A DNA stretch of 60,863 bases from Gemmatimonadota bacterium (GTDB lineage Bacteria > JAAXHH01), in the NCBI GenBank assembly GCA_009838645.1, contig VXRC01000027.1, positions 1 through 60,863 on the forward strand. Reading direction: 5' to 3'. The notes under the pieces are model-generated. The model did no database searches. It saw only the letters and a list, made by a program, of their open reading frames with translations, and was not told the DNA's origin. Each line of letters begins with the position of its first letter. The stretch's first letter is position 1. Both the position numbers and the translations under genes were made by a program. Positions 1,635-60,863 of this stretch are shown here, one piece after another.

Positions 1635-2057
1635 ATGCCCAAGGTAACCGTAGCCGAGTTGCAGGACTTCATAGATGGCGTGCCCTACGTCCATGATCTC
1701 GGATTGCGGATCGTCGAGGTGGAGGACGGGATCTGCCGCGGCCGTCTGCCCTACCAACCCAGGTTCGCCCAGTCCTACAACCTCGTGCACGGCGGGGTGA
1801 CGGCCTCCCTGGCCGATACCATGGCGTACATGGCCCACGCCACGCTGAACGGGATCACGCGGGACACGGTGACCACCAACCTGACGGTCACCTACCTCCA
1901 TGCCGCCAGCGAGGAAGCCCTCAACGCCGAGGCCCGCGTCATCAAGAACGGCCGCAAGGTCCTTTACGGCGAAGTGGTGATCACCAACGACGCCGGGACC
2001 CGGGTCGCCCATGCCACGGTCACCTATCTCAGGCTGGATTACGAGCCGCGGAAGTAG
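1635..2057 (+). CDS. PaaI-family hotdog thioesterase
   Basis: A 140-residue single hotdog-fold protein, the usual length for PaaI/YdiI acyl-CoA thioesterases. The family helix signature HGGVTASLADTMA begins at His52, and the C-terminal strands (VTTNLTVTYL, ARVIKNGRKVLYGEV) match the fold. It would hydrolyse an acyl-CoA thioester in the cytoplasm; chain specificity cannot be read. The last codons and the stop form the first unit of a 33-bp tandem array that continues downstream. The 174 bases before it (1461-1634) show no gene. Confidence 0.88.
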   Translation: MPKVTVAELQDFIDGVPYVHDLGLRIVEVEDGICRGRLPYQPRFAQSYNLVHGGVTASLADTMAYMAHATLNGITRDTVTTNLTVTYLHAASEEALNAEARVIKNGRKVLYGEVVITNDAGTRVAHATVTYLRLDYEPRK

Positions 2058-2136
2058 GCGCCGCGACTGCATTACGAGCCGGGCGGACAGGCGCCGTTGC
2101 TACATTACGAACCGGTCGGACAGGCATCAACGCCTT
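2038..2136. repeat. Tandem array, 33 bp x 3, spanning a stop codon
   Basis: Units start at 2038, 2071 and 2104, each opening with attacgagcc or attacgaacc. The first unit is coding: it holds the last six codons and TAG of the thioesterase gene. The third ends at the stop of the convergent oxidase gene (2135). The whole convergent gap is therefore repeat. Confidence 0.9.
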
Positions 2137-3274
2137 ACGCGAACCGGGCCAGTCCGTGCAGGGCGATGTCGTGCGAAGTTTCCCCCGTGGTGGCCAGGTC
2201 GGCCATGATCTCACCGATAACGCTGCAGAACTTGAACCCGTGGCCGGAGCAGGGCGAGGCGACGAATACGTTCTCATACTCCGGATGGGCGTCCAGGATG
2301 AAGTGGCCGTCGGCGGTGTTGGTGAAGGCGCAGACCTGCAGGCTCGTGGTGGGGCCCGACCCGTCGGGGAAGTAGCGTTCGGTGAATGACCGGAGCACGG
2401 CTTCGTCGCGGGGGTGGGTGGACCGGCCGATGCGGTCCATGTCGACATGCTCGTCCAGGTGATGATAGCGGCCGACCTTGAACCCCGGTACCCCGTGTAC
2501 GGGTAGTCCGTAGTACCGGCCCTCGGCAACCTGGAGATTGAACACCGGGAACCGGTCCGGCTGAAAAAGTTCGAGTCGCTTCGGCTGAAACCAGCCCAGG
2601 ACCTGGCGTTCCGGCTGTACCAGCCCATCCAGAGGTTTCACCACCTTGCCGATCCACGCGCCCGCGGTGATCACCAGCCGTTCCGCCGTGTAGGTCGATT
2701 TACCGGTCTTTACCGTGATGCCACGCCCGTCGGACGTCCAGTCCAGCACTGGTTCGCATCCGTGGATCTCGGCGCCCGTTTCCTGGGCCGCTACCACGTG
2801 GGCGACAATGCAGCGCTCGGGAAGGAGATAGCCGCCGTCCGTTTGAAACACGGCCATGATGTCCTCCGGCAACCGGTAGCCCGGAAACCGCCGGTTCACT
2901 TCCGCGCCCGTGAGAATCTCGTGGGGCAGGCCGTGCTCCTCGCAGGACGCCTTCGAGCCCTGGAAGACCCAGTCGTCCGCGGGGCCCGCGTCCAGCGCCC
3001 CCGTGATATGCAGCAGCCGCTCACTCGCCCTGTCCTCGATCTCACGCCACAACGCGTAGGCGCGCCGGAGCAGCGGTACGTAGGAAGGGTGTTCGGAGTA
3101 AGCCAGGCGGATGATGCGCGTCTGACCGTGGGAAGATCCGAGGTCGTGGGGGATGTTGAACTGTTCGAGTCCCAGTACCCGACAACCGCGGCGGGCAAGG
3201 TGCCAGGCCGTGGCGCTGCCCATGCCGCCCACGCCGATCACGATGACGTCGTATGAGGAGGATGGATGGGTCAC
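2135..3274 (-). CDS. Monomeric sarcosine / N-methyltryptophan oxidase
   Basis: A 379-residue FAD amine oxidase of the MSOX/MTOX family, which oxidises secondary amino acids such as sarcosine or N-methyltryptophan to the amine, formaldehyde and H2O2. The N-terminal dinucleotide-binding loop GVGGMG is at 14-19, followed by the family signature SSHGQTRIIRLAY. The covalent flavin cysteine is present as Cys315 in VCAFTNTADGHFILD, and SGHGFK near the C-terminus is also typical. The length equals that of characterised members. The gene is convergent with the thioesterase and divergent from purB. Which N-methyl amine is used cannot be decided from sequence. Confidence 0.9.
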   Translation of the reverse strand: MTHPSSSYDVIVIGVGGMGSATAWHLARRGCRVLGLEQFNIPHDLGSSHGQTRIIRLAYSEHPSYVPLLRRAYALWREIEDRASERLLHITGALDAGPADDWVFQGSKASCEEHGLPHEILTGAEVNRRFPGYRLPEDIMAVFQTDGGYLLPERCIVAHVVAAQETGAEIHGCEPVLDWTSDGRGITVKTGKSTYTAERLVITAGAWIGKVVKPLDGLVQPERQVLGWFQPKRLELFQPDRFPVFNLQVAEGRYYGLPVHGVPGFKVGRYHHLDEHVDMDRIGRSTHPRDEAVLRSFTERYFPDGSGPTTSLQVCAFTNTADGHFILDAHPEYENVFVASPCSGHGFKFCSVIGEIMADLATTGETSHDIALHGLARFA

Positions 3275-48622: not shown

Positions 48623-50608
48623 TTACATTCCTTCGCACCATTCGATCATTGTGTCGAGCACGGATTCCGCCAGGCTGTCGATCGATCCCCGGGTACAGTC
48701 CATGTCGCGCGTCGAGATATCGGTACCGTCCATGTCGCGCGATGACGCCGAAACATAATACTTGATCGTGGGTTCCGTGCCCGATGGGCGCACGATCACC
48801 CGGGTGTGGCCGGCTTCCGAGAAGGTGAAGATCAGGATATTCACCCGTTCGCCTGCGACGGGGCCGGCCGTACCCGTCCGCAAGTCACGCGCCTGGCCGT
48901 TCTGTCGGTCGATCACGCGGCATACGGCCCATTCGCCTATGTGCTCCGGCGGTGCTTCACGCAGTGCGGCCATGATGCCTTTGATCCTGCCGGCACCCTC
49001 CGCGCCGGGCAAGGCGACTGACCGCTGGACTTCCCTGAAATAACCGTACTTTCGGTAGATGTCATCCAGTTCGTCGCGCAGGGTACGGGTTTCTCGCTTC
49101 ACCAGGGCGGCGTACTCGGCAAGAAGGATGCCGGTGGCAGCCTCTTTGTCCCGGATCCGCGCGTCCGCCAGGTAACCGTGGCTTTCCTCCGTGCCGAACA
49201 CGAAAGTCATGTCCGCCGGCATTCGATCGATTGCCGCGCCGACGTGCTTGAAACCGACAGGTAGGTCGTCCACGACTTCCAGGCCGTAGGACCGGGCGAT
49301 GATCGCGGCCAGGTCCGATGTGACCACGGTCTTGCAGAACAGCCCCCGCTCGGGCAGCGTGCCGGCCGCCTGTTTACGGTGGAGTATGTAGTGGCAGAGG
49401 AGCACGCCGATCTGGTGCCCATTCAGCACCAGTTCTTCCGACGGGGCCTTCCAGCTCCGGTCCGGCAAAGGAAGTGCGCATCCGATCCGGTCGGCGTCGG
49501 GGTCGCTGGCCAGCACGAGGTCGGCCCCGGTTTCCGAGGCTTTTTTAATGCCCAGCCGAAACGACGAGGGTTTTTCAGGGTTGGCGATGCCTTCTTCCAG
49601 GGTGGAGAACGCGTGGTCGGGCACGACCTGTTTTTCCACGTAGTGTACGTTCCCGTATCCCATTCTGTCCAGTGCCTCGGCCACGGAAGTCATGCCCACG
49701 CCGTGCAGCGGCGTATACACCAGGCGGATATCTCGTGCGCCGGCCAGTGTCATTTCGGTGAGGACGTCGATGTACTTCTCGTCCTGGTCCTTCGCGATTG
49801 TCCGGATCAGGCCGCGCCTGACGCCGTCCTCATAGGCGATTCGCCTGATTTCGGCTACACGGCGCATTTCCTCCGTGATGCCGGCGTCAAGGGGCGCGAC
49901 GACCTGTCCGCCGTCGGGTCCGTATACCTTGAATCCGTTGTCGCCGGGCGGGTTGTGACTGGCACTGATCATCACGCCGGCCGCGGCCTCGAGTTCCCGT
50001 ACGGCGAATGACAGGGCGGGGGTGGACCGGCAGCCGTCGAAGATACGCACCGGGACACCGTTGGCGGCGAGCACCCTGGCCGTCTCTTTCGCGAACTCCT
50101 CCGAGTTGCGCCGGGTGTCCCACGCCACGACGACGCCCGCGCCGGCCCGGTCGCCGAACCTCGGGTTGAGCTTGCCGGCCCGGTCGCCGAGCCTCGGGTT
50201 GAGCTTGCCCGCCCGGTCGCCGAGACTCGTGTTGTGCCAGCCTTCCGGACCGCTGCCGAAGTCCCGACGGTGCCTGCCGTCTGGTCCATTGCCGTCCGGC
50301 TCGTCCCCGGCGCCGGCTATAAACTGCGCCAGGCCCTGGGCGGCCACGCCCACGGTGCGGGTGTTGAACCGGTTCGGACCCGGACCCATCCTGCCGCGGA
50401 TACCGCCCGTTCCGAAGGCCATATCGGAACCGAACGCGTCTTCAAGTTCACCGGTGTTCCCGCCTTCGACCCGTGCCCGGATCTCTCCATGGAACGCCGC
50501 GAACTCCGCGTCCGTCAGCCATCGTACCAGGGCGTCGCCCGCGTGGCGCGACAGGACGCCTTCGTCGATCCAGTCTTTAATCCGTTGGATGCAGCAGGGA
50601 TCGCTCAT
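48623..50608 (-). CDS. Phosphohexomutase (PGM/PMM, PGM2-like)
   Basis: A 661-residue alpha-D-phosphohexomutase that interconverts 1- and 6-phosphates of hexoses or pentoses. The phosphoserine loop ISASHNPPGDNG (Ser about 217), the metal loop ASDPDADRIG and the sugar-binding GTEESHGYL are present. Two features are unusual. About 57 residues are inserted before the first conserved strand VVVAWDTR, including three 11-residue repeats (GDRAGKLNPRL). Near the C-terminus a 10-residue unit (SRDMDGTDIS) is duplicated. The family is normally about 550-600 residues, which the insertions explain. The start at 50608 removes 28 unconserved residues. Confidence 0.9.
   Translation of the reverse strand: MSDPCCIQRIKDWIDEGVLSRHAGDALVRWLTDAEFAAFHGEIRARVEGGNTGELEDAFGSDMAFGTGGIRGRMGPGPNRFNTRTVGVAAQGLAQFIAGAGDEPDGNGPDGRHRRDFGSGPEGWHNTSLGDRAGKLNPRLGDRAGKLNPRFGDRAGAGVVVAWDTRRNSEEFAKETARVLAANGVPVRIFDGCRSTPALSFAVRELEAAAGVMISASHNPPGDNGFKVYGPDGGQVVAPLDAGITEEMRRVAEIRRIAYEDGVRRGLIRTIAKDQDEKYIDVLTEMTLAGARDIRLVYTPLHGVGMTSVAEALDRMGYGNVHYVEKQVVPDHAFSTLEEGIANPEKPSSFRLGIKKASETGADLVLASDPDADRIGCALPLPDRSWKAPSEELVLNGHQIGVLLCHYILHRKQAAGTLPERGLFCKTVVTSDLAAIIARSYGLEVVDDLPVGFKHVGAAIDRMPADMTFVFGTEESHGYLADARIRDKEAATGILLAEYAALVKRETRTLRDELDDIYRKYGYFREVQRSVALPGAEGAGRIKGIMAALREAPPEHIGEWAVCRVIDRQNGQARDLRTGTAGPVAGERVNILIFTFSEAGHTRVIVRPSGTEPTIKYYVSASSRDMDGTDISTRDMDCTRGSIDSLAESVLDTMIEWCEGM
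48692..48751. repeat. In-frame duplication, 30 bp x 2, phosphohexomutase C-terminus
   Basis: Two 30-bp units start at 48692 and 48722; both contain gtccatgtcgcgcg. They encode two copies of a 10-residue unit in a loop of the last domain. Confidence 0.85.
50144..50238. repeat. In-frame tandem array, 33 bp x 3, phosphohexomutase loop
   Basis: Units start at 50144, 50177 and 50210; the first two differ at a single position in 33. On the minus strand they encode GDRAGKLNPRL or a close variant three times. The array lies inside the extra loop before the first conserved strand of the enzyme. Confidence 0.92.
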
Positions 50609-60306: not shown

Positions 60307-60863
60307 ATGTCCCTCTACCCTTTCATTCGCCCCCTGCTATTCCGCCTGGACCCGGAGTGGATACATCGCGCAACGCTCACCGCGGTCGGCACGGCGGGGC
60401 GCATTCCTCCCGTGCGCGGACTGCTCCGAGGTCTCCTTGCCGTGGACGATCCGCGGCTCAGGGTGGAAGCCGGCGGGCTCGCCTTCCCCAATCCCGTCGG
60501 TCTGGCCGCCGGGTTCGACAAGAATGGCGTCGCCATGGCAGGACTCGCTTCGGCGGGATTCGGATTCGTGGAGGTGGGTTCGGTCTCGGCCCATCCATCG
60601 GAAGGCAATCCCGGGCGCCCACGGCTGTTCCGTGTCCCGGAAGATGATGCGATCGTGGTCCATTACGGGGTGCCCAACGACGGTGCCGAAGCGGTGGCGC
60701 GGCGGTTCGCTTCCGCCCGGCCGTGGCGGTCGCCCGGATCGCCCGGACCGCCTGGATCGCTCGGATCGCCCGGACCGCCGGGATCGCCTGGATCGCCGTG
60801 CTCGCTCGGCCCGCCCCGCCCGCCCCCCCCGCCCCCCCCCGCCCCGCCGCCCCCGCCCCCTGG
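60307..60863 (+). CDS. pyrD: Dihydroorotate dehydrogenase, class 2 (5' part)
   Basis: The N-terminal 185 or so residues of the membrane-associated, quinone-dependent enzyme of pyrimidine synthesis. MSLYPFIRPLLFRLDPEW is the amphipathic helix region, then AGGLAFPNPVGLAAGFDKNG binds flavin, and GFVEVGSVSAHPSEGNP and GRPRLFRVPEDDA follow. The usual NRxGFNN is replaced by VHYGVPNDG. From about 60735 the frame runs into a nine-base repeat (PGS, PGP units) at the place where class 2 enzymes have a short loop, then into C-rich contig-end sequence. The gene is cut off by the window edge. Confidence 0.9.
   Translation, partial: MSLYPFIRPLLFRLDPEWIHRATLTAVGTAGRIPPVRGLLRGLLAVDDPRLRVEAGGLAFPNPVGLAAGFDKNGVAMAGLASAGFGFVEVGSVSAHPSEGNPGRPRLFRVPEDDAIVVHYGVPNDGAEAVARRFASARPWRSPGSPGPPGSLGSPGPPGSPGSPCSLGPPRPPPPPPPAPPPPPP
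60735..60815. repeat. In-frame tandem array, 9 bp x 9, pyrD
   Basis: Nine or so units of cggatcgcc / cggaccgcc encode PGS/PGP tripeptides inside pyrD. The consensus is the same as at the symporter C-terminus (6557-6646). Beyond 60807 the sequence degrades to C runs. Confidence 0.8.
60816..60863. other. Degraded contig end
   Basis: Almost pure C with occasional G and A, a likely assembly artefact continuing from the repeat array in pyrD. It should not be translated. Confidence 0.75.

Follow-up and report, generated by a model that had tools for sequence, protein, structure and literature searches.

A chimeric tandem repeat between convergent thioesterase and oxidase genes of a Gemmatimonadota bacterium, probably a neutral slippage tract

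Introduction

Repeated sequence beside a bacterial gene end may belong to one of several described classes. Tandem repeats of the minisatellite type are made of neighbouring copies of a unit some 10–100 nt long, beyond what chance would produce, and differ in length between related genomes. Dispersed repeats have copies at several unrelated loci, an intrinsic terminator consists of a G+C-rich hairpin followed by a run of T, and fail-safe stops would be in-frame stop codons within the copies that are conserved among relatives. As regards additional in-frame stops downstream of genes (tandem stops), Ho and Hurst (2019; PMC6764699) report that compelling evidence for their selection in eubacteria is lacking.

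Here we describe a repeat located between two convergent genes, for a thioesterase and an amino-acid oxidase, in a stretch of 60,863 nt (hereafter, the window) from a Gemmatimonadota bacterium with a genome of 3.81 Mb. A first-pass annotation of the window had reported a 33-bp array copying the end of the thioesterase gene, stop codon included, and had offered three explanations, i.e. a back-up terminus, a transcription-end signal or tolerance to slippage just past a stop. The array is like tandem stops in that each of its units has a TAA in the oxidase frame, but differs from them in that these TAA positions are not conserved in congeners and in that the thioesterase frame has no stops in the array's copies.

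Results

The thioesterase gene (hotdog-fold, 140 amino acids; ORF at 1635–2057 on the forward strand, stop TAG at 2055–2057) was recognized by Pfam 4HBT (E 7.9e-13) and TIGR00369 (E 1.8e-24), and the facing gene, encoding a FAD-dependent amino-acid oxidase of the N-methyl-L-tryptophan oxidase type (379 amino acids; ORF at 2135–3274 on the reverse strand, stop TAA at 2137–2135), by Pfam DAO (E 1.1e-49) and NF008425 (506.9 bits versus a cut-off of 257). The two genes converge with 77 nt between them. This arrangement is kept in all 11 congeners examined, while three family or order relatives (G012, G013 and G015) have the thioesterase with no oxidase beside it in the flanks fetched. Across the 12 genomes the gap measures 77, 118, 81, 65, 101, 31, 11, 79, 135, 163, 118 and 170 nt, a length variation that is a comparison between species only, and despite this range of 11–170 nt the thioesterase is 140 amino acids long in every one of them.

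Tandem Repeats Finder reported an array at 2034–2125 (period 33, 2.8 copies, 80% matches, score 98), and three 33-nt units read on the forward strand span 2034–2132, with units 2 and 3 occupying the 77-nt gap. Unit 1 (2034–2066) comprises the codons LDYEPRK, the TAG and 9 nt of spacer, and is indeed the gene's own terminus (DYEPRK-stop) as first annotated. Unit 2 (2067–2099) shares 23 of 33 positions with unit 1, and unit 3 (2100–2132) shares 25/33 with unit 2 and 17/33 with unit 1 (all ungapped). Unit 3 ends 2 nt before the oxidase stop at 2135–2137; the coordinates first given for the array, 2038–2136, are shifted by 4 nt from our register and run into the oxidase stop. The array exceeds chance: the unit pattern with up to three mismatches was matched twice in the window, by the two spacer units, and never in 100 shuffles, and 20 arrays scoring at least 98 were found in 461 kb (460,863 bases) of the same genome with none in shuffled sequence. 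The oxidase end was considered as a fourth unit and rejected: its ungapped identity to units 1–3 is 8–12 of 33, and a comparison of the thioesterase end with the oxidase end gave p = 0.417 for our genome, p < 0.05 being reached in 2 of the 12 genomes.

Three 33-nt units beginning with the gene end are thus real, but units 2 and 3 resemble that end mostly in their first 15 nt, with 14/15 and 12/15 matches, the last 18 nt matching at only 9/18 and 5/18 positions. The stop codon is not among what was copied, since the stop position reads TAG in unit 1 and CAG in both units 2 and 3; a gene-end copy that does include the stop occurs in the congener G009. Unit 3 closes with 18 nt (2115–2132, forward strand) that represent an old piece of spacer next to the oxidase stop, found with 17/18 identity in G007, also 2 nt from the oxidase stop, and at the same place in G009 (15/18), G003 and G008 (14/18 each), G001 (13/18) and G002 (10/18); no match was seen there in the other five congeners. 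Because these nucleotides match congener spacers at the same place, the CAG within them is most likely older spacer sequence and not a decayed stop. Unit 2, to judge from its likeness to unit 3, looks like a duplicate of the chimeric unit.

Past its TAG the thioesterase frame meets no stop for 105 codons, so that, with CAG in the copies, the suggested back-up terminus fails for this gene. The oxidase frame is different in that every unit has a TAA (reverse strand; 2107–2105, 2074–2072 and 2041–2039), a by-product of the ATTACG motif, the first of them 9 codons past the oxidase stop, and it is here that an array supplying extra stops against read-through, for either gene, would find its support. 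Across the 12 genomes, however, the next oxidase-frame stop lies 9–47 codons on with no common position, and 25% of 375 sampled genes have their next in-frame stop within 9 codons. Together with the view of eubacteria taken by Ho and Hurst (2019), this leaves fail-safe stops a highly unlikely explanation. The open frame of 105 codons, the 33-nt unit and the CAG of units 2 and 3 would also suit the remnant of a longer thioesterase, whose C-terminal tail, built of 11-residue repeats in the ancestor, was lost when a C-to-T change created the TAG of unit 1. The relatives already contradict this: the protein stops at 140 amino acids in 12/12 genomes, with TAG, TAA or TGA, the proteins of G012, G013 and G015 have their C terminus no more than a few residues from that point, and another in-frame stop lies inside the gap in 8/12 genomes. 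We consider such a remnant exceedingly unlikely, and a thioesterase coding extension or stop read-through was likewise rejected in view of the congeners.

By its position between two convergent stops, the array lies where we would expect a bidirectional terminator common to both genes to sit. Its repeats are, however, direct and not inverted. On the forward strand the predicted fold is weaker than that of shuffled sequence (z +1.69), and on the reverse strand it does not stand out (z −0.36). No terminator-like site, with a T run behind a G+C-rich hairpin, was found in the gap (2034–2140 examined), Rfam returned no match for the array, and the gap of G006 is only 11 nt long, with lengths elsewhere differing widely. 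The transcription-end signal of the first-pass annotation is on these grounds very unlikely. A short repeat located in a spacer might instead be a dispersed element (REP-, MITE- or CRISPR-like) inserted there, but this genome holds no second full copy (best other place, E 0.047), let alone copies at several unrelated loci, and no plasmid match was obtained. A 91-nt spacer stretch of G003, searched in the 12 genomes as a candidate mobile insert and rejected, was confined to this locus in two of them (G003 and G002). An inserted element, already contradicted in the genome of the window, has practically no chance of being the explanation.

A tree built from the coding parts divides the genomes into clades of five and seven, the latter containing our genome and being unresolved except for the pair G003–G009 (100/100 support). 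G003 and G002 have a long spacer stretch in common (BLAST 86%) and G008, of the other clade, has a stretch that we judged by eye to be related, so that a long spacer is probably ancestral. The alignment of orthologous loci proposed with the first-pass annotation did turn up a homologue that lacks both later copies, namely G006, in which the 11 nt between the stops leave no room for them. Given a probably ancestral long spacer, this gap looks like a derived deletion and not the ancestral state, with the deletion, as judged by eye, apparently running from one AGGC motif to another, the first in the thioesterase stop region and the second in the old spacer segment.

The spacer of G009 (locus L011) holds a duplicate of the thioesterase end, identical over 29 nt and with its TAG, and next to it a copy of the oxidase end (p = 0.002). 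Both copies are absent from its nearest relative, G003, which has a different 118-nt spacer; the thioesterase-end duplication is therefore a fresh one, present in G009 but not in its sister. A piece resembling the thioesterase end was detected in the gap of 8 of the 11 genomes that could be tested, the gap of G006 being too short (p < 0.05, with p ≤ 0.008 in four of the eight), and was not detectable in G002, G004 and G010; as the 12 genomes are related, these counts do not represent independent events.

Short tandem arrays occur at about 25 per 100 kb in the sampled stretches of our genome and G006, and at 7.5 and 13.5 per 100 kb in two genomes of lower G+C from outside the genus. At a score of at least 50 the array is far from alone: we counted 116 arrays in 461 kb of our genome (2 in shuffled sequence) and 101 in 400 kb of G006 (1 in shuffled sequence). 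Copies of a gene end in its downstream gap, scoring at least 30, followed 7/251 gene ends in our genome and 7/199 in G006 (null expectations 0.00 and 0.10), so a strong downstream copy is present at about 3% of the sampled gene ends in the genus, with genes called by a simple script and not a trained gene finder. Two genomes related only at the domain level gave 0/114 (G067) and 1/96 (G062), a rough contrast in view of their G+C (0.46 and 0.52 versus 0.62–0.63) and of a different gene-calling rule.

A preference of arrays for stop codons was tried and not upheld: arrays crossing a called stop numbered 17 in our genome against 9.4 or 9.9 expected from relocation (17 being reached in 0 and in 3 of 200 relocations), but in G006 only 9 against 7.0 expected (reached in 46/200). 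As this enrichment did not replicate in G006, we do not claim that arrays are specially tolerated at stops. Among the gene-end copies that cover the stop, 8/11 keep one there, four of these eight in frame, a count from which 5 of the 16 gene ends scoring at least 24 were dropped since their stop lay outside the aligned part. The copies match at 29/33 positions within the stop, compared with 184/201 over the rest, and therefore show no sign of extra conservation of the stop.

Other repeats were noted in our genome. About five copies of an 18-nt unit (L095:28756–28851; C42) span both stops of another convergent pair, and the (C/T)TAG present in most units gives an in-frame stop on both strands; this is a neater 'stop array' than the one between thioesterase and oxidase, and probably a product of the same slippage process. 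The window itself contains another 33-nt tandem repeat, within coding sequence (50141–50234; 2.8 copies, 93%), and, at its right end, a very C-rich repeat tract with units of 9 to 24 nt (60730–60860) that could be the point where the assembly broke off.

Discussion

We regard the array, with a probability of roughly 0.85, as a short, decaying and non-functional tandem duplication in a convergent-gene spacer, generated by repeated slippage or short-homology recombination. Such events would repeatedly add and remove pieces of 20–40 nt drawn from the ends of the two genes and from their common spacer. In the genome of the window, a unit may have arisen with its first half resembling the thioesterase end and its second half taken from the old spacer piece next to the oxidase stop, and this chimeric unit would then have doubled. 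A duplication running from inside the gene to past its stop would leave the first copy, and so the protein, unaltered, which is why such duplications would be tolerated. We infer the lack of function, the mechanism and the order of events, the last two from general knowledge of direct repeats, and the order depends on a tree that is partly unresolved. Among the three explanations first offered, tolerance to slippage just past the stop fits best, with a gap of 11–170 nt beside a constant protein of 140 amino acids in 12 genomes and with similar gene-end copies elsewhere in the genus.

More tentatively, and somewhat against the odds, spacers downstream of genes in this genus may consist in part of recycled gene ends, the stop shielding the protein while the gene end serves as a template for spacer growth; in some convergent pairs, such as that of G009, both genes would contribute to this growth, and chimeric arrays of the present kind would be left behind. 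The best reading of the array is an ordinary one, a neutral chimeric slippage tract in a repeat-rich genus. On its own it has little significance, but it is a clean example of an apparent gene-end duplication which 11 relatives, once compared, revealed as a drifting slippage tract from which the eye-catching feature, the copied stop, is missing. Function should not be read into repeated gene ends in repeat-rich genomes before orthologues have been compared.

The closest known counterparts are the intergenic minisatellite or VNTR repeats of bacteria, which the array resembles in its head-to-tail units of tens of bases, diverged from one another and located in a spacer, and in a length that differs between related genomes. 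It differs from them in that its copies are chimeric and few, and in that the comparison of its copy number is one between species.
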